DNA from: Sphingopyxis sp. FD7
GTDB lineage: Bacteria; Pseudomonadota; Alphaproteobacteria; Sphingomonadales; Sphingomonadaceae
Reading direction: 5' to 3'
NCBI RefSeq assembly: GCF_003609835.1
Contig: NZ_AP017898.1
Span: forward strand, 1 to 64,000
Length of the DNA stretch: 64,000 bases
Of the stretch, positions 9,003-15,966 are shown in pieces. Each line of letters opens with the position of its first letter. Position 1 is the stretch's first letter. The translations under genes and the position numbers were made by a program. A model generated the notes under the pieces. That model made no database searches. It was not told where the DNA came from and saw only the letters and a list, made by a program, of their open reading frames with translations.

Positions 9003-9806
9003 TCAGGATTTGCGCGGGCCGACAAAGCCGATGACGGCGCCCTGCGGGTCGATCGCGTTCATCGCGAACTCGCCGCCGGGGATTTCCATCGGTTCGTTGG
9101 TGATCGTCCCGCCGTTCGCGGCGACTGCACCTCGCGCGCGGTCGATGTCGTCGACGCCGATGTAGAAGGTCCACGTCGGGGCGGGGATGCCCTCCATGAG
9201 CGGCATCGCCGCGCCGATCATGTCGCCGCCGTGCTGAAGGAAGCGATATTGGCCAAGCTCGCCCATGTCGAGCGCGCCTTCCTGGCCCCAGCCGAAATGC
9301 TTGCGGTAAAAGGCAATGGCGGCGTCGGGATCGCTCGTCGCCAGCTCGTTCCAGCGGACATGCTGGGCCTCGGTCACCGAAAAGGCGTCGGCGGCGGCGT
9401 TGTCGGCGCCCGCGGGGGGGATGGGAGCCATCACGTAAAAGACCGCCCCCTGCGGATCGGCGACCATCGCCATGCGCCCGACGGGCAGATCCTTTGCCGG
9501 CATGTGCACGGCGCCGCCGTCGGCGGTGATCGCTGCGATCGCGGCATCGACGTCGGGGGTGTAAAGATAGCCGAGCCAGCCCGGCCGCGCGCCGCCGGCG
9601 ATCATGTCGGCGCTGAGCGTCAGCACGCCGCCGGCGTGGCCGCCGCCGGTGCGGACAATCATCCGGTAATCGACGCCGCCGGGCGCGCCGGGGTCGCTGT
9701 GCGCGGCGATCGTCCAGCCGACGACCGCGCCGTAAAAGCGCGCCGCGCCCTCCGGGTCGGGGGTCATCAATTCATACCAGATGAAGCTGCCTGCGGGATT
9801 GGTCAT
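9003..9806 (-). CDS. Two-domain VOC (glyoxalase/bleomycin-resistance) protein
   Basis: 267 residues containing two VOC modules in tandem, about 1-125 and 140-265. Each starts with a ...WYEL/RWNEL segment followed by FYGAVVGW or FYRKHFGW, and each ends with a DPQGAVF/I strand. The protein resembles hydroxylase-like VOC proteins. The internal duplication gives one complete VOC fold per chain. The start is set by AAGGAG before ATG 9806; the open frame runs further upstream without similarity. It belongs to the TetR-headed cluster. Substrate unknown. Confidence 0.88.
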   Translation of the reverse strand: MTNPAGSFIWYELMTPDPEGAARFYGAVVGWTIAAHSDPGAPGGVDYRMIVRTGGGHAGGVLTLSADMIAGGARPGWLGYLYTPDVDAAIAAITADGGAVHMPAKDLPVGRMAMVADPQGAVFYVMAPIPPAGADNAAADAFSVTEAQHVRWNELATSDPDAAIAFYRKHFGWGQEGALDMGELGQYRFLQHGGDMIGAAMPLMEGIPAPTWTFYIGVDDIDRARGAVAANGGTITNEPMEIPGGEFAMNAIDPQGAVIGFVGPRKS

Positions 9807-9846: not shown

Positions 9847-10146
9847 TCAGCGCCGGTAAAAGCGCAGCGGCCTGGTGTCGGCGCGCGCCATCTGCCCGCG
9901 CGCCTCGAGGTCGAGCTGCACGCCCTTTTGCCACCAGCCCGCCTTCGCCCCGCCGGGAAACAGCGCATCGGGGAGCAGCGGCAGCAGCCGTTCCTTGATC
10001 TCCGCCGCGGTCAGCCCCGGCGCCTCGGTCGGCACCACCGCCAGCATGGCCGCGCGCATCGCTTCATATTTGGCGCGCTCGACGCGCACGACATGGCCGG
10101 GGCTGTTGACGTTCAGCATTTCGACGCGGTCGTCATTCTTCGTCAT
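9847..10146 (-). CDS. DUF6958-like small protein
   Basis: 99 residues with VEMLNVNSPGHVVRVERAKY, LPDALFPGGAKAGWWQKGVQ and LDLEARG, which I associate with the DUF6958 family; the family number is from memory. No signal peptide or membrane segment is visible and no function is known. The ATG at 10146 follows AAAGGA and overlaps the GFA gene stop (ATGA), so the two are probably translated together. Confidence 0.7.
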   Translation of the reverse strand: MTKNDDRVEMLNVNSPGHVVRVERAKYEAMRAAMLAVVPTEAPGLTAAEIKERLLPLLPDALFPGGAKAGWWQKGVQLDLEARGQMARADTRPLRFYRR

Positions 10147-10694
10147 CGTGCAAATCCTTTCGTTGTTTCGACTTTCGGCGCACGAAACCCCATCGCCGCC
10201 CATGCTTTCAAAAGCCGCCACAAGAGCTTGCCCGACGGCGCGGCATGATTGGGAATGTCATCCGGCAGCTCGACACCATCGGGCCGTTCCTTGATCATCG
10301 TGCGCATCTCGGTCGCCGGGCGATTCTCAGCCGGAATGCGCGCCGAATAGACGCTCAGCCAATGGCCCTTGGTAAACTCGAGCGCGATCGGCGAATTGCA
10401 GCAGCGCGCGACAAAGCGCCGCGTCGGCGAATCGGGCCTCAGCCGATGTTCATCCAGCTGGTCGGTACCCGACAGCCATTCGATCCGATCCTTGCGGACG
10501 AGCAGATAAGGGGTACCGCCATCGGCCTCCAGCGTCCTCGGCGCGCCGGGTGGCACATCGAAAGTCTGCCCGGCCGCTTGGCAGCTATGGCAATAACAGG
10601 TTACCGCGGCGATCGGCTTGCCCGCCATCGCCAGTGCCACCGTGCCGCACTGGCAGGTTGCGGTGCGGATCCTGGTCGCGTCGTTGCCGCTCAT
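10143..10694 (-). CDS. GFA-family zinc-binding protein
   Basis: 183 residues. The first half carries the cysteine pattern of glutathione-dependent formaldehyde-activating (GFA/Gfa) proteins: TCQCG near residue 14, CYCHSCQ near 33-39 and a CC pair about 100, likely zinc ligands. The second half is a helical tail typical of a longer GFA subgroup. GFA enzymes speed formation of S-hydroxymethylglutathione, but most relatives are untested. It overlaps by four bases with the GST gene upstream and the DUF6958-like gene downstream, making a three-gene coupled unit. Confidence 0.85.
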   Translation of the reverse strand: MSGNDATRIRTATCQCGTVALAMAGKPIAAVTCYCHSCQAAGQTFDVPPGAPRTLEADGGTPYLLVRKDRIEWLSGTDQLDEHRLRPDSPTRRFVARCCNSPIALEFTKGHWLSVYSARIPAENRPATEMRTMIKERPDGVELPDDIPNHAAPSGKLLWRLLKAWAAMGFRAPKVETTKGFAR

Positions 10695-11329
10695 GCCGCC
10701 AGCTCCGCCATCGCGGCGGCGATGGTGATCGGCGCCCTGGGCCGCGCATACATGGTGTCGAGAAAGGCGCGGAGCGCCGGCGCATCGTCCAGCAGCATTT
10801 CCTCGCGCGCCCAGTCGAGCGTGAAGGCCGCGTTGAAATCGGCGACGGTCAGCCCGTCGCCGACCAGGACGTCGCGCCCCTGCATATGCTGTTCGAGCAC
10901 CGCGATCATGCGCCGCGCGTCGCGCTTCGCCAGCGCAATCTCGGCTTCCGACCGTTCGTCCGGCGCATAGATGAAATTGTGGAGCGCGATGCGCCACAGC
11001 GGCGCCTCGATCTCGGTCATCAGGAAGAACAGCCAGTGGTACATGCGGCCGCGATCTTCGGGCGTCGCGGGGATCAGCCCGCCGCCGGGGAAGCGCTCGC
11101 CATATTTGTCGGCGAGATAGAGCTGGATCGCCGCCGATTCGCTGATCACCGTGTCGCCGTCGACGAGCACGGGCAGCTTGGCGGCGGGATTGAGCGCGAG
11201 AAACGCGGGCGTCAGCTGCTCGCCCGCGCCGAGATCGATCGGGGCAATTTCGTGTGGCAGGTCCAGCTCGTTGAGCAGCCACATTGCGCGCAAGGCGCGC
11301 GTCGGGGGAGTGCCGTAAAGCCTGATCAT
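10691..11329 (-). CDS. Glutathione S-transferase family protein
   Basis: 212 residues: MIRLYGTPPTRALRAMWLL, with the N-terminal fold of theta/nu-like bacterial GSTs, then NPAAKLPVLVDG with the cis-proline and ESAAIQLYLADKYG for glutathione binding, then the helical domain. The start ATG 11329 follows AAGGAG. It overlaps the GFA gene by ATGA. A 164-bp gap upstream contains a hairpin CTCCCCAAGG/CCATGGGGAG, the only break of this size within the cluster. Confidence 0.92.
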   Translation of the reverse strand: MIRLYGTPPTRALRAMWLLNELDLPHEIAPIDLGAGEQLTPAFLALNPAAKLPVLVDGDTVISESAAIQLYLADKYGERFPGGGLIPATPEDRGRMYHWLFFLMTEIEAPLWRIALHNFIYAPDERSEAEIALAKRDARRMIAVLEQHMQGRDVLVGDGLTVADFNAAFTLDWAREEMLLDDAPALRAFLDTMYARPRAPITIAAAMAELAA

Positions 11330-11493
11330 CTTTCGCTCCTTCAACCCTTCCGGCGCCGACGGCGTGGAGAGGGGGGTCATCCCCGGATGGTGGACGGGCC
11401 GCGAGCCGTGCCGGCGCCGCGTTCGTCGGCCCTGTTCGTCAGCCCTCGGAAGTGCCGGCTCCCCAAGGTTTCGCCATGGGGAGGCGGCGGCCG

Positions 11494-12216
11494 TCACGCT
11501 TCGACGATCGGCACGAAGCCGCCATAGATCATGCGCTTGGCATCGAATGGTCGTTCCTCTTCGGGACCGGGGTTCATCCGTTCGTCGGCCATCACCTTTT
11601 CCCAGCCCTTGTCGCGCGCTTCCCTGCTCGGCCATTCGACCCAGCTGAACACGACGGTCTCGCCATCCTTTTTGTGCGCGGCGCGGGCATAGTCGGTGAC
11701 CTCGCCACCGGGCACATCGTCGCCCCAGTTTTCGACGACGCGCGTGGCCCCATGTTCGATGAAAACGTCCGACGCCATTTTCGCCAGCTCGCGATAGCGC
11801 TCCTTGTTGGCGTCCGGGACGGGAGCGACGAAACCGTCGACATATCCGGTCGCGCCGCTGCCGCGATCATCGAGGATCGACTCGAAACCGCCGACGATCA
11901 TCCGCTTGCCGTCGAATGGCATGGTGGCGCCCATTTCCTTCATCCGGGGGTCGGACATGATCTTTTCATTCGCGGCGTCGCGCGCCGCCCGGTCGGGATA
12001 TTCGAACCAGCTGAACACGACGGTTTCGTCGGGTCTGGCCTGCACCGCGCCCTTGAAGTCGTTGATCTTGCCGTCGGGCACATCATCGCCCCACGCCTCG
12101 ACCATCCGCCTGACGCCGAACTCTCTGAACAGCGGCGCCGCGTCGGCGGCATGTTTGCGATATGCGTCCTTGTTGGCGGTCGGCACCGCGACCACAAATC
12201 CTTCCACATAGGTCAT
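11494..12216 (-). CDS. Tandem DUF1428 protein
   Basis: 240 residues made of two copies of the DUF1428 domain (about 1-115 and 122-240). Each copy begins YVEGF or YVDGF followed by VPxANKxxYR, continues with GxxRxVExWGDDVPxG and ends in FDxKRMIxGGF. DUF1428 proteins are usually about 120 residues and have a dimeric ferredoxin-like alpha/beta-barrel fold of unknown activity, so this chain probably folds as a covalent dimer. GGAGAG precedes ATG 12216. It lies between two GST genes in the TetR-headed cluster. Confidence 0.9.
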   Translation of the reverse strand: MTYVEGFVVAVPTANKDAYRKHAADAAPLFREFGVRRMVEAWGDDVPDGKINDFKGAVQARPDETVVFSWFEYPDRAARDAANEKIMSDPRMKEMGATMPFDGKRMIVGGFESILDDRGSGATGYVDGFVAPVPDANKERYRELAKMASDVFIEHGATRVVENWGDDVPGGEVTDYARAAHKKDGETVVFSWVEWPSREARDKGWEKVMADERMNPGPEEERPFDAKRMIYGGFVPIVEA

Positions 12217-12248: not shown

Positions 12249-12920
12249 TCAGGCGGGCGGACCCGCCTCTTCGCTGAATGCGGCAAGCTGCGCGTCGAGC
12301 GCACGCTGAAAGGCGGGCCGTGCAAGGCATCGGTCGAGATAGGTCTGAAGCCGCGGCTGCTCGGCGACCAGCCCCGCCTCGACGGCTTCGCGCAGCACGG
12401 TCGCCATCGCGATGTCGGCGACGGTGAAGTCGCCCGCCAGATATGGCTTGTCGCCCATCGCGTCGTTCAGGCGGCCGAGTCGGCCGCGGATGAAGGCAAT
12501 CAGGCCAGGGCGACGCAGTTTCGCCCATTCCTCGTCCTTCGCGAAAATGTCGACATTGCCGAGCTCGAACAGCATCGGTTCGACGCTGTTATAGGCGGCG
12601 AACAGCCAGGCGAGCGTGTTCGCCCGGCCCTGCGGATCGCGCGGCATCAACCGTTCGTCCTTTTCGGCGAGGTGGAGCAGGATCGCGCCACTTTCAAACA
12701 GGCGGACGCCATTATCGTTGAGCACCGGCACCTGCCCCCATGGCTGGAACAGGAAATGGTCGGCAGGGCGGTTGACCGCGCTGATCAGACGTTCGGCATA
12801 ATCGAGGTCGATTTCCTCGCACGCCCAGCGCGGGCGCAGGTCGCGGACAAAGCCGCGCGCGAAATCCGGCACCCAGTCGAAGGCGGTGACCTCGATGGCG
12901 GCATCGGGATTGATCGGCAT
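12249..12920 (-). CDS. Glutathione S-transferase family protein
   Basis: 223 residues. The N-terminal half shows AFDWVPDFARGFVRDLRPRW, GQVPVLNDNGVRLFESGAI and HLAEKDERL, the thioredoxin-fold and glutathione-site elements; the C-terminal half is helical with the DFTVADIAMATVL N-capping region of GSTs. The active-site residue is not obvious. Start ATG 12920 follows GAGAGGA at a longish distance. It is 29 bases downstream of the hydrolase gene and 32 upstream of the DUF1428 gene. Confidence 0.88.
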   Translation of the reverse strand: MPINPDAAIEVTAFDWVPDFARGFVRDLRPRWACEEIDLDYAERLISAVNRPADHFLFQPWGQVPVLNDNGVRLFESGAILLHLAEKDERLMPRDPQGRANTLAWLFAAYNSVEPMLFELGNVDIFAKDEEWAKLRRPGLIAFIRGRLGRLNDAMGDKPYLAGDFTVADIAMATVLREAVEAGLVAEQPRLQTYLDRCLARPAFQRALDAQLAAFSEEAGPPA

Positions 12921-12949: not shown

Positions 12950-13912
12950 TCAGAAGGCCGGCGGCGGCGGCGCCTTGTCGTCGAGAAAAGGCACGACCAT
13001 CGCAGCGATAACGGGCACCTCGGCCATGATCCCGATGTGCGATGTCGCGGGCAGGATCGCCAGCCGTGCCTTGGGCGCTTCGGTCAGGAAACCCTGCGTC
13101 GCCGCCGCGACGTCGCCGCCACCGCGCAGTTTGAAGAGCTCGATCGCATGGTCGAGCGTCACGCCGTCGGCGTCGCCGATGATCACCATCGTCTTGCCGG
13201 GGATCGCGCGCACCGCGGCGTCGGACCAGCCAAAGGGCGTGGCGTCGAGTTTCTTGATATTCTCGACGAGTATGGGGAACTTCTCCGGCGCAGGCGACAG
13301 TCGTTGATATTCGGTCTCGATGATCGTGTTCGCGAAAAACTCGGGCCTGATCGCCGCAATGCCCGCCAGCACCTCGGGATACCAACCGTCGAGGCGCGAG
13401 GTTGCCGAGAGGATGATCTGCTTGCCGACCTTGTCGGGGTGCCGGATCGCCATTGCAATCGCGGCCGACCCGCCCATCGAATAACCGAGCACATCGACCT
13501 TTTCGACGCCCAGCTTGCCCAGCACCGCGGCGGCATCGTCGGCCATGCGGTCGTAATCCAGCGGCGTATCGACGCCGCCCGACCGGCCGTGGCCGCGCGC
13601 ATCGATCGCGATCACCGGCCGCGTCGCGGCAAGCGGCGCGATCAGCGGCCGCATCGCATCGGCCGACATAAAGGCGCCATGCAGAACGAGCAGCGGGGTG
13701 CCACCCGCCCCTGGATCGCCATAGAGCTGGTAATGGATGGCGGCGCCGGCAACGTCCACATGACCATGCGCGGAGGCGTTGACGGGCGCCACCGCAGCGG
13801 CGGGCGCTTCGGCCGCGGCGCCCTGCGGCATCGCGACGAACGCCAGCGCGGCAATGATTTTGGCGAACGCCGCGCCTGCGGCCAGTCGGGGGAGGGGAGA
13901 AAGGCTTATCAT
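12950..13912 (-). CDS. Exported alpha/beta hydrolase
   Basis: 320 residues with an N-terminal signal peptide (about 1-35, ...MPQGAAAEA), so probably periplasmic, unlike most proteins of this cluster. The catalytic triad is visible: nucleophile elbow GYSMGG, acid in IGDADGVT, and histidine in PATSHIGI. LLVLHGAF carries the oxyanion HG motif. It resembles esterases or C-C hydrolases of the general alpha/beta fold; substrate unknown. It sits between DUF4287 and GST genes with gaps of 29 bases on each side. Confidence 0.88.
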   Translation of the reverse strand: MISLSPLPRLAAGAAFAKIIAALAFVAMPQGAAAEAPAAAVAPVNASAHGHVDVAGAAIHYQLYGDPGAGGTPLLVLHGAFMSADAMRPLIAPLAATRPVIAIDARGHGRSGGVDTPLDYDRMADDAAAVLGKLGVEKVDVLGYSMGGSAAIAMAIRHPDKVGKQIILSATSRLDGWYPEVLAGIAAIRPEFFANTIIETEYQRLSPAPEKFPILVENIKKLDATPFGWSDAAVRAIPGKTMVIIGDADGVTLDHAIELFKLRGGGDVAAATQGFLTEAPKARLAILPATSHIGIMAEVPVIAAMVVPFLDDKAPPPPAF

Positions 13913-13941: not shown

Positions 13942-14160
13942 CTAGCTTCGTTTGCCTTTGATGAAGGCGACGATCGACATGGCGTGGCCGTGGCCCAGGC
14001 CGTAATCGGCCTTGAGCCAGTCGATCACCGCGCTCGCCTTGACGCCGGGCGCCAGGCCCGTGTCGTCGGCGAGGCCTTTCTGGACCGCCTGCGCGGCCAG
14101 GGCATCGGGCGATTGCCCCGTTTTGGTCCGAACATTGTCGAGATAGGCCTGAAAGCTCAT
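13942..14160 (-). CDS. DUF4287 domain protein
   Basis: 72 residues: MSFQAYLDNVRTKTGQSPDA, followed by a helical region ending GLGHGHAMSIVAFIKGKRS, the DUF4287 pattern. DUF4287 domains occur alone or fused to DUF5655 and have no assigned function. The ATG at 14160 overlaps the DoxX gene stop (ATGA), so expression is likely coupled. Longer in-frame starts upstream lie inside the DoxX gene and have no family similarity. Confidence 0.85.
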   Translation of the reverse strand: MSFQAYLDNVRTKTGQSPDALAAQAVQKGLADDTGLAPGVKASAVIDWLKADYGLGHGHAMSIVAFIKGKRS

Positions 14161-14573
14161 GCCGCGGCTCCCGCCCGGAACGGAATCATCGCGCGGACCC
14201 GCGGATCGCGCAGCCACAGGCCGCCCCACAGCATCACGCCCAGATAGACGCCGAACAATATATGGCTGAACAGCGGGTTGCCGACACGGACCTGCGTGGC
14301 GATCGCGCCGCCCAGATAGGCTGTGATCAGGATCGCGCCGAGGATGCTCGTGCGCGGCCAGACATGGAGCAGCGTCGGGATCAGCAGCAGGATCGCCAGC
14401 AGATACATGGTGCCGACCTCGAGCGGCCAGCCGAGGTTCGGCGGACTATATTTGATTGCGGTCTCCGGCGACACCAGCTTGAGCCCGGCGTCGAAGAGGA
14501 GGAAGAGGATCACCAGGCCGCTGAGCACGCGGCCAAGGATCAGCTGATATTTGGCGGGGACCGCATCGGACAT
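14157..14573 (-). CDS. DoxX-like integral membrane protein
   Basis: 138 residues with four predicted membrane segments (about 13-30, 48-68, 74-95 and 103-122) and the conserved charged residues of the DoxX-like family in the first helix (GLVILFLLFDAGLKL). DoxX-like proteins are inner-membrane proteins; some relatives are linked to quinone or thiol redox stress. It is co-directional with and close to the VOC gene upstream (25 bases) and overlaps DUF4287 downstream. Confidence 0.85.
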   Translation of the reverse strand: MSDAVPAKYQLILGRVLSGLVILFLLFDAGLKLVSPETAIKYSPPNLGWPLEVGTMYLLAILLLIPTLLHVWPRTSILGAILITAYLGGAIATQVRVGNPLFSHILFGVYLGVMLWGGLWLRDPRVRAMIPFRAGAAA

Positions 14574-14598: not shown

Positions 14599-15036
14599 TC
14601 AGGCGGCCGTTTCGGCGGGTTCGCCGGCGGGAATTGCGGCGGGGTCCATCCACATCACTTCCCAGATATGGCCGTCGGGATCCTCGAAGCTGCGCCCGTA
14701 CATGAAGTCGCCATATTCCTGCGTCGGCGTGGGGTCGGCGGCGCCGCCCGCTGCGGTCGCGCTGGCGACCAGCGCGTCGACGTCGGCGCGGCTGTCGGCG
14801 GAAAGGGCCAGCAGCACCTGCGCGTGGGTGCGCGCATCGGGGATCGTCTTTGGCGTAAAGCTCGCCCATTTTTCATGCGTCAGCAGCATGACATGGATCG
14901 CCCCTTCCTCGACCACCATGCAAGCGGCGGTGTCGTCGGTGAAGGCGGGGTTGTTGACCGCACCGATCGCGGCATAAAAGGCCTTCGATCTTTCGAGGTC
15001 GGCGACGGGCAGGTTCACGAAAATCATACGGGGCAT
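14599..15036 (-). CDS. VOC family protein (glyoxalase-like)
   Basis: 145 residues with the single VOC module: MIFVNLPVADLERSKAFYAA at the start and GRSFEDPDGHIWEVMWMDP at the end, where the terminal glutamate is the usual metal ligand. Such proteins resemble lactoylglutathione lyase and dioxygenase-like folds; the substrate is unknown. The start at ATG 15036 rather than ATG 15042 is chosen from the distance to AAGGAG. It is the first structural gene after the TetR regulator (67 bases). Confidence 0.9.
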   Translation of the reverse strand: MPRMIFVNLPVADLERSKAFYAAIGAVNNPAFTDDTAACMVVEEGAIHVMLLTHEKWASFTPKTIPDARTHAQVLLALSADSRADVDALVASATAAGGAADPTPTQEYGDFMYGRSFEDPDGHIWEVMWMDPAAIPAGEPAETAA

Positions 15037-15103: not shown

Positions 15104-15805
15104 TCATGCTGCGCCGTTCCGTGCAAAGAGCATGGCGACATAGCGCTTCAGATGGGTGACGCTCTCGCGCGCGATCGCCGGATCGTTCGCCGATTTGGCG
15201 AGGATGAACGATCCCTGCAGCACGGCCTGGACGTGGCGGGCAAGGCCGATGGCGGTGACGCCTTCGGGCTTGCCGTGGCGGTCGAACGCCGCTTCGATGT
15301 CAGGGACGAGCGCCTCGCAATAGGCGTTGAGGCTGGCTTCGCACGCTTCGCGGATCGCTTCGCTTGTCGCATAGGCTTCCTGCACCATCGTGCCGACGAA
15401 GCAGGTATAATCCTCGGTCGGCCCGCCCAGCATCGACAGGCGGAAATCGATATGGCCGAGCAGCCGGTCCAGCGGATCGTCGAGCCGCGTGTGGGGCGGC
15501 AGTTCGAACAACGGTCGCGCGCGGTCGGTCCAGCCCTCGGCGGCGGCGACTGCGAGCGCCTCCTTCGACGCGAAATGATGGAAAAAGGCGCCCTTGGTCA
15601 CGCCCGCAGCCGCGCAGATCTGGTCGACCGTCGTGGCGGCATAGCCCTGACGGCGCACCAGCTGATGCGCAGCGGTGATCAGCGCCGCGCGCGCGCTGCC
15701 CCGCGGCGCCCGGCCGCCGGGGGTGCCGCCGCCCGCCTGGGGGACTGCGCGGGCGGCGGCGTCGGGGAGCGCGGGGGAAGTCGGGGGCGTCTGATTCGTC
15801 GTCAT
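15104..15805 (-). CDS. TetR-family transcriptional regulator
   Basis: 233 residues. After a Pro/Ala-rich N-terminal extension of about 30, the HTH domain reads ALITAAHQLVRRQGYAATTV...ICAAAGVTKGAFFHHFASKE, a textbook TetR recognition region. The C-terminal ligand domain has several cysteines, including YTCFVGT and the REACEASLNAYCEAL stretch, which could sense electrophiles as in NemR; that is inference. It heads 13 co-directional genes down to 7817. The promoter shows a palindromic operator over its spacer and -10. The predicted transcription start coincides with ATG 15805, implying a leaderless mRNA and arguing against the in-frame ATG at 15817, which lies inside the -10 element. Confidence 0.93.
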   Translation of the reverse strand: MTTNQTPPTSPALPDAAARAVPQAGGGTPGGRAPRGSARAALITAAHQLVRRQGYAATTVDQICAAAGVTKGAFFHHFASKEALAVAAAEGWTDRARPLFELPPHTRLDDPLDRLLGHIDFRLSMLGGPTEDYTCFVGTMVQEAYATSEAIREACEASLNAYCEALVPDIEAAFDRHGKPEGVTAIGLARHVQAVLQGSFILAKSANDPAIARESVTHLKRYVAMLFARNGAA

Positions 15806-15812
15806 GCGAATC

Positions 15813-15841
15813 GACATACCGACTGGTTGGTATGTTGTCAA
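15813..15841 (-). promoter_or_regulatory. TetR promoter with embedded operator
   Basis: Minus strand: TTGACA (15841-15836), 17-base spacer, TATGTC (15818-15813). The 22-bp near-palindrome ACATACCGACTGGTTGGTAT plus GT at 15814-15835 (half-sites ACATACC/GGTATGT) fills the spacer and most of the -10. This is the usual size and form of a TetR-family operator, so binding would block RNA polymerase directly. Confidence 0.8.
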
Positions 15842-15966
15842 ACGAATGTCGCCCCCACGCGCCGCGGCACTTTTGCCAGCCTCCGAAAAAGACTCGACCT
15901 TCCCGTCGCTTCGCCTAAGAAGGCATTGGAACAAAGGGGGCACATCGCGCTGTTCCGGGGGAGCCA

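Follow-up and report, generated by a model that had tools for sequence, protein, structure and literature searches.

The tetR-type gene of the window, by which we mean the whole 64,000-nucleotide stretch of Sphingopyxis sp. FD7 DNA analyzed here, likely heads a leaderless, TetR-autorepressed operon controlled from positions 15805-15841. On sequence grounds, its layout is that of the known acuR-type switch, with conserved methylation sites around the start codon as an addition, and these sites may tie the operon to the cell cycle.

Table 1. Promoter elements and genes of the putative tetR operon.
Feature	Position	Strand	Evidence
-35 element TTGACA	15841-15836	minus	read from sequence
Palindromic operator ACATACCAACCAGTCGGTATGT, 22 bp, proposed TetR autoregulatory site	15835-15814	minus	sequence, conservation
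-10 element TATGTC	15818-15813	minus	read from sequence
Upstream CcrM-type site GATTC, extended CGATTCG, -7 to -3	15812-15808	minus	sequence, conservation
Predicted leaderless start codon ATG of tetR	15805-15803	minus	sequence, comparison
Downstream CcrM-type site GAATC, extended CGAATCA (opposite strand, TGATTCG), +9 to +13	15797-15793	minus	sequence, conservation
tetR-type repressor, 233 aa	15104..15805	minus	TetR_N 1.3e-16; TetR_C_13_2, LmrA/YxaF-like, 2.3e-06
Glyoxalase/bleomycin-resistance-type protein, SD AAGGAG	14599..15036	minus	PF00903 1.5e-12
DoxX-like protein, SD AGGAGG	14157..14573	minus	PF13564 2.5e-12
DUF4287 protein, start overlapping DoxX stop	13942..14160	minus	PF14117 8.1e-20
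Alpha/beta hydrolase	12950..13912	minus	PF12697 5.2e-19
Glutathione S-transferase	12249..12920	minus	PF02798 1.6e-09
Double DUF1428 protein	11494..12216	minus	PF07237 3.1e-88, 2 stretches
Second glutathione S-transferase, past 164-bp gap	10691..11329	minus	PF02798 3.5e-16
GFA-domain protein, partial profile match (3-33 of 115)	10143..10694	minus	PF04828 1.2e-09
99-aa protein	9847..10146	minus	no NCBIfam match
Double glyoxalase-type protein	9003..9806	minus	PF00903 5.7e-20, 2 stretches

Promoter, Proposed Operator, and Start Codon

Read on the minus strand, the region contains, in this order, TTGACA, ACATACCAACCAGTCGGTATGT, CGATTCGC, and ATG (table 1). The spacer from TTGACA to TATGTC is of 17 nucleotides, and the 22-bp palindrome, symmetric at 18 of its 22 positions, holds five of the six bases of TATGTC. 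The A of ATG 15805 is 8 nt past the last base of this hexamer, which leaves 7 nt between them. The geometry of the original prediction, a TTGACA-N17-TATGTC promoter overlaid by a 22-bp palindrome in front of ATG 15805, is therefore exact by direct reading. TATGTC matches TATAAT at only three of six positions, and because a generic promoter scan demands more of the -10 element, it did not list this promoter. Elements of this kind are common in the class: over 60% of the promoters of three alphaproteobacteria have a -10 without the last T, and over 80% of those of Novosphingobium aromaticivorans do (PMC8407463). Within the 3,938,226-base genome, ACATACC-N8-GGTATGT and TTGACA-N17-TATGTC each occur at a single place, as does the degenerate palindrome consensus with up to three mismatches; the reversed-pattern controls gave 0 in all three cases. 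Since no further operator copy was found genome-wide with up to three mismatches, the tetR regulator looks local. A text search of the literature for ACATACC/GGTATGT returned only unrelated papers among the matches listed.

The tetR gene is present in 73 of the 80 genomes of the genus and, in family-wide samples, in 21 of 199 (E-value at most 1e-20) and 38 of 397 genomes (E-value at most 1e-40). After removal of 43 duplicates identical around tetR, 132 nonredundant loci were left. These rows are related by descent, so the counts given below are not independent and binomial p-values would be overstated. We call sphingomonad the rows obtained by searching the genus and the family, together with loci L088-L099; this assignment was made by title or search group. 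The 14 outer bases of the palindrome are found with at most three mismatches at 125 of the 132 loci, versus 0.7% of 2640 shuffles. Allowing four mismatches raises the count to 130, yet 5% of shuffles reach this level and the match of L125 resembles a chance one, which is why we quote the stricter figure. Directly preceding the palindrome, the sequence closest to TTGACA agrees with it at 6/6 bases in 86 of 130 homologs and at 5/6 or more in 114. The nested -35/operator/-10/ATG block recurs throughout the genus, in further sphingomonads, and in alphaproteobacteria outside that group. Conservation of the -10 element is inseparable from that of the operator because the former sits inside the palindrome. 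Together with the acuR precedent (see below), the conserved operator block supports the proposal that the TetR protein represses its own gene through the palindrome. Two minor observations concern the gene copies themselves. The tetR match contains an in-frame stop in four loci, L010, L048, L141, and L196 (genomes G040, G214, G249, and G400), which are possibly decaying copies or sequencing errors; one genome, G038, has two copies of the gene (L006 and L023), with the operator layout in both.

The distance between palindrome and start codon is 5-9 nt in 120 of the 129 homologs with an assigned start. The start was not assignable in 7 of the 132 rows, four of which were restored via an ATG in another frame at the expected gap, hence 129; in L109 and L128 the palindrome register is, by eye, off by 4 nt (true gap about 7), and counts were kept as computed. 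A Shine-Dalgarno (SD)-like match of at least 4 nt precedes the start in 6 of the 120 short-gap homologs versus five of the nine longer-gap ones. No SD-like 4-mer was found upstream of ATG 15805, and all ten downstream cluster genes checked have an SD match of at least four nucleotides. Of the 120 short-gap homologs, 111 have a pyrimidine at base -1 (100 with C, 11 with T), and a pyrimidine-purine step is the usual context of transcription starts. The fixed gap between operator and start, the missing SD, and the acuR precedent all favor the leaderless tetR message put forward in the original prediction, although the actual transcription start could differ from the A of ATG 15805 by one or two nucleotides. 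Among alphaproteobacteria, leaderless messages are no exception; in Zymomonas, they make up 119 of 2,675 pairs of transcription start site and gene (PMC7566282). Five loci from other alphaproteobacteria (L113, L114, L122, L124, and L127) have an operator as here, 18-21 nt to the start, and SD-like sequences, and we take them, from their sequences, to be natural leadered versions of the same promoter. The family thus includes a built-in comparison, with SD-like sites in some of its leadered homologs.

It is improbable that tetR is instead read from a leader, with transcription starting further upstream, from a promoter in 15842-15966, and the palindrome acting only as operator or roadblock. There would be room for it, the start codons of tetR and yifB being 161 bp apart, and about half of the leaderless units of Zymomonas have an upstream leadered start too (PMC7566282). 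However, ATG 15805 has no SD, and the ATG stands 7 nt past the palindrome in 40 and 8 nt past it in 69 of 130 rows. Moreover, on a tree of 98 sphingomonad rows (the short row L010 was omitted), alignment columns change 32-47 times at -60 to -37 and 3-25 times at -36 to -9, so that the conserved block starts at the -35 element. For a start well upstream, named in the original prediction as the outcome that would speak against it, we thus see no conserved promoter signal, the sphingomonad columns beyond -37 being unconserved. It is scarcely credible that translation begins at ATG 15817 within the palindrome. This codon is open and in frame in the window genome and, at the equivalent position, in just 50 of 120 homologs; 34 others have it in a different frame, 18 have a stop after it, and 18 lack it, so it cannot be the conserved start. 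It also lies upstream of the predicted transcription start, inside the -10 element.

The TetR Protein and Its Gene Cluster

The C-terminal domain of the repressor is a marginal match to PF21993 (28.2 vs. the 27-bit Pfam cut-off), and PF16925, at 26.8, is just under 27. With TetR_N and a TetR_C_13-type domain over the Pfam cut-off, the protein falls into the NemR/YxaF-like group. A profile built from 14 homologs matches the NemR structure 4yze along its length (8.3e-15), two uncharacterized TetR structures outscoring 4yze against the same profile, and a single-sequence search versus NemR gives 31 bits only. The TetR protein is not an AcuR equivalog, as it scores 43.5 bits against NF051457, whose cut-off is 247. 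Cys64 and Cys135 are invariant in 131 of 131 aligned rows and Cys155 is found in 121 of them. In the 4yze alignment, Cys135 aligns with the GCL cysteine of NemR, which we take to be the sensor cysteine numbered Cys106. The nemR gene presumably neighbors nemA and gloA, the latter encoding a glyoxalase.

The genes downstream of tetR (table 1) form a set that suggests detoxification of reactive electrophiles or aldehydes. Their order is kept in Sphingopyxis loci, some of which lack single genes, and DUF1428 or glyoxalase neighbors recur in other alphaproteobacteria; at several Paracoccus loci, none of the characteristic neighbors of the cluster was found. The claim that the promoter controls the whole cluster is likely to hold: intergenic gaps are short as far as the DUF1428 gene (11494), after which a gap of 164 bp follows. 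This gap (11330-11493), from the DUF1428 gene to the second glutathione S-transferase gene, is the largest in the cluster. An internal promoter is possible there; the promoter scan listed nothing in it.

GANTC Sites around the Start Codon

A pair of GANTC sites flanks ATG 15805 (table 1). The original prediction made no mention of this pair and was, in this respect, incomplete. Among sphingomonad rows, a downstream GANTC is present between +5 and +22 in 78 of 99 (59 of 71 in the genus and 19 of 28 in other sphingomonads), and exactly at +9 in 69 of 99; among non-sphingomonad rows with the operator, only 1 of 30 has it. The upstream site is found in 50 of the 71 genus-group rows and in none of the 28 other sphingomonad rows. 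Where the start of a genus row is in frame (67 rows), both sites are missing in only one case. Once the pattern was known, a later set of 15 rows was collected, of which 11 were left after subtraction of the already counted L182-L185. In this set, the downstream GANTC occurs in 7 of 11 (one of the seven being, by eye, a copy of an earlier locus) and the gap between operator and start is 6-8 nt in 10 of 11. The downstream site is thus missing from 21 of the 99 sphingomonad rows and from 4 of the 11 loci of the later set, and the tree implies 19 changes between presence and absence of GANTC at +9. By comparison, GANTC lies exactly at +9 in 2 of 396 other genes, the starts of which are crude calls, and one of these two is a tetR that escaped masking. 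Among control genes of L053-L099 without a recognized SD, GANTC is at +6 in five and at +21 in four; this may be one orthologous gene recurring across loci.

The sites also share an extended form. In sphingomonads, every one of the 78 downstream GANTC sites fits YGAKTCK in one orientation, as do 36 of the 50 upstream ones, whereas the background fit is 39 of 90 GANTC in the window and 226 of 548 in other sphingomonad loci; near the start, the two window sites, CGATTCG and CGAATCA, both fit. The middle base of the +9 site (n = 68) is A in 42 rows, C in 15, G in 10, and T in 1, with 8 changes on the tree; among same-shape windows of the coding part, the next most conserved reaches 42. As this base is a second codon position, its variation alters the amino acid. 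At codon 4, AAT is chosen in 44 of 48 cases for Asn, AGT in 10 of 11 for AGY Ser, and ACT in 16 of 19 for Thr (16 of 23 if the four rows left out of the Thr test, in which codon 4 is ACG and the site falls at +12, are counted), compared with 43%, 13%, and 5%, respectively, in a window-ORF reference made of greedily called long ORFs, some of which may be spurious. Such a codon choice argues for selection acting at the DNA level on the +9 GANTC.

One alternative is that the +9 GANTC merely reflects conservation of the N-terminal peptide M-x-x-[NST]-[RQH] and is not a DNA signal. In agreement with it, some rows without GANTC retain Asn (AAC) or Ser (AGC) at codon 4, and displaced GANTC sites are shifted mostly by whole codons (+6, +12). 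We nevertheless consider it unlikely: the middle base varies, and the amino acid with it, while G, A, T, and C stay; the rare codons ACT and AGT are in use; YGAKTCK fits every downstream site (78/78); and the genus group has a GANTC at -7 too, in noncoding DNA. The [NST]-[RQH] dipeptide could still explain part of the signal. We give little credence to a second alternative, in which the inverted GATTCG/CGAATC pair of Sphingopyxis would be the operator of another dimeric regulator and independent of methylation. In the window, the two sites are indeed exact inverted copies of each other over 6 bp, with the ATG between them (15793-15812), but the upstream half is absent from all 28 sphingomonad rows outside the genus, 19 of which keep the downstream site, and a variable middle base better suits a GANTC enzyme than a sequence-specific dimer. 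GATTCG...CGAATC was also considered as a hairpin or separate operator and set aside because the middle base varies, the operator being kept only as the alternative just described. Among the matches listed in a search of mostly open-access literature, none links GANTC sites to such a tetR.

A Model and Its Relation to Known Systems

We propose that the promoter drives an electrophile- or aldehyde-type detoxification operon whose first gene encodes its TetR-family repressor. Bound to the 22-bp palindrome, a dimer of this TetR would occupy the interval between the -35 and -10 elements and thereby block RNA polymerase. Comparison with homologs and with acuR suggests that transcription would begin at the A of ATG 15805 or no more than about 2 nt away from it, and that tetR would be translated, probably weakly, from a leaderless mRNA, the later genes being translated via their SD sites. 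By homology, a reactive compound would modify the invariant Cys135, at the presumed position of NemR Cys106, and so release the repressor. More speculatively, the GANTC at about +9 in sphingomonads, and at -7 in the genus group, might enable GcrA, a methylation-dependent sigma-70 cofactor, to help promoter opening, an input which might couple expression of the operon to replication.

The closest precedent is the acuR-acuI-dddL operon of Rhodobacter sphaeroides. There, 5'-RACE placed the start of the acuR mRNA exactly at the AUG, an inverted repeat overlaps the promoter, and operator mutations lead to constitutive expression; the authors also reported leaderless operons of this type from further bacteria (Sullivan et al. 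2011, PMC3017554). The operon has in common with ours a TetR-family gene in first position, an inverted repeat over its own promoter, and downstream SD sites. It differs in its operator, TAATAGAC-n6-GTCTATTA, in its inducer, acrylate, and in its cargo genes, and the main text of the acuR paper mentions neither GANTC, methylation, GcrA, nor CcrM (PMC3017554). The layout suggests that acuR-type control is widely kept in alphaproteobacteria. Operators overlap promoters also in Tn1721 tetR and lambda cI, where we know of no methylation sites. These are a resistance transposon and a phage switch, whereas the operon described here is a chromosomal detoxification operon; both repressor mRNAs lack a leader (as cited in PMC3017554). 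Two other repressors, NemR of E. coli and AltR of Pantoea ananatis, repress their own gene together with stress-tolerance genes (PMC13178969). The sensor-cysteine position of NemR is conserved in the TetR family studied here. As here, the AltR box shares part of its length with the predicted -10, but its sequence and spacing, CAATCTAC-N6-GTAGATTG, differ from those of our operator, and since it also partly overlaps the predicted ribosome-binding site, altR appears to be leadered (PMC13178969).

As for methylation, the genome contains gcrA and ccrM, with Pfam GcrA and RAMA above cut-off; the best NCBIfam matches (GcrA, 136.7 of 280 bits; CcrM, 607.2 of 830 bits) are both below cut-off. GANTC is m6A-methylated in Sphingomonas AAP5 (PMC8067484) and GcrA stimulates open-complex formation at methylated promoters (PMC7403470). 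GcrA is thought to use YGAKTCK sites, and for the GcrA-activated genes of B. subvibrioides no preference for the extended motif was reported (PMC7987155). Mutations of GANTC crippled the mipZ, podJ, flaY, and pleC reporters of Caulobacter, whereas the reporter of CCNA_00697, the top GcrA target within an N-terminal coding sequence, was unharmed (PMC3667746), so a GANTC at +9 need not act. We tentatively regard a role for GcrA/CcrM at the tetR promoter as possible. The sites resemble those of Caulobacter mipZ, podJ, and ctrA P1, in which a GANTC near the start is extended to YGAKTCK (PMC3667746, PMC4287350, PMC7987155), and at CCNA_00697 GcrA binds an N-terminal coding sequence that holds three GANTC. 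The sites of the promoters just named lie at -24 to -35 from the start, in a survey that counted 50 bp upstream only, whereas they are at -7 and +9 here. Unlike at Caulobacter GcrA/CcrM promoters, the GANTC sites here adjoin a TetR operator and belong to a stress-type operon. If the sites act, they would link a chemical-stress operon with the GcrA/CcrM circuit of replication and methylation, whose best-known targets are cell-cycle genes; in a sphingomonad reporter, point changes would then separate methylation, repressor occlusion, and leaderless translation.

The two inputs might also interact. In such a two-key switch, bound TetR would shield the -7 GANTC from CcrM and methylated sites would recruit GcrA to the weak -10, so that release of the repressor under stress would lead to methylation and to a replication-coupled, possibly heritable ON state. 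We hold this arrangement to be rather improbable. MucR occludes GANTC sites in Caulobacter (PMC5172544), and the operator described here ends 1 nt before the -7 GANTC site.
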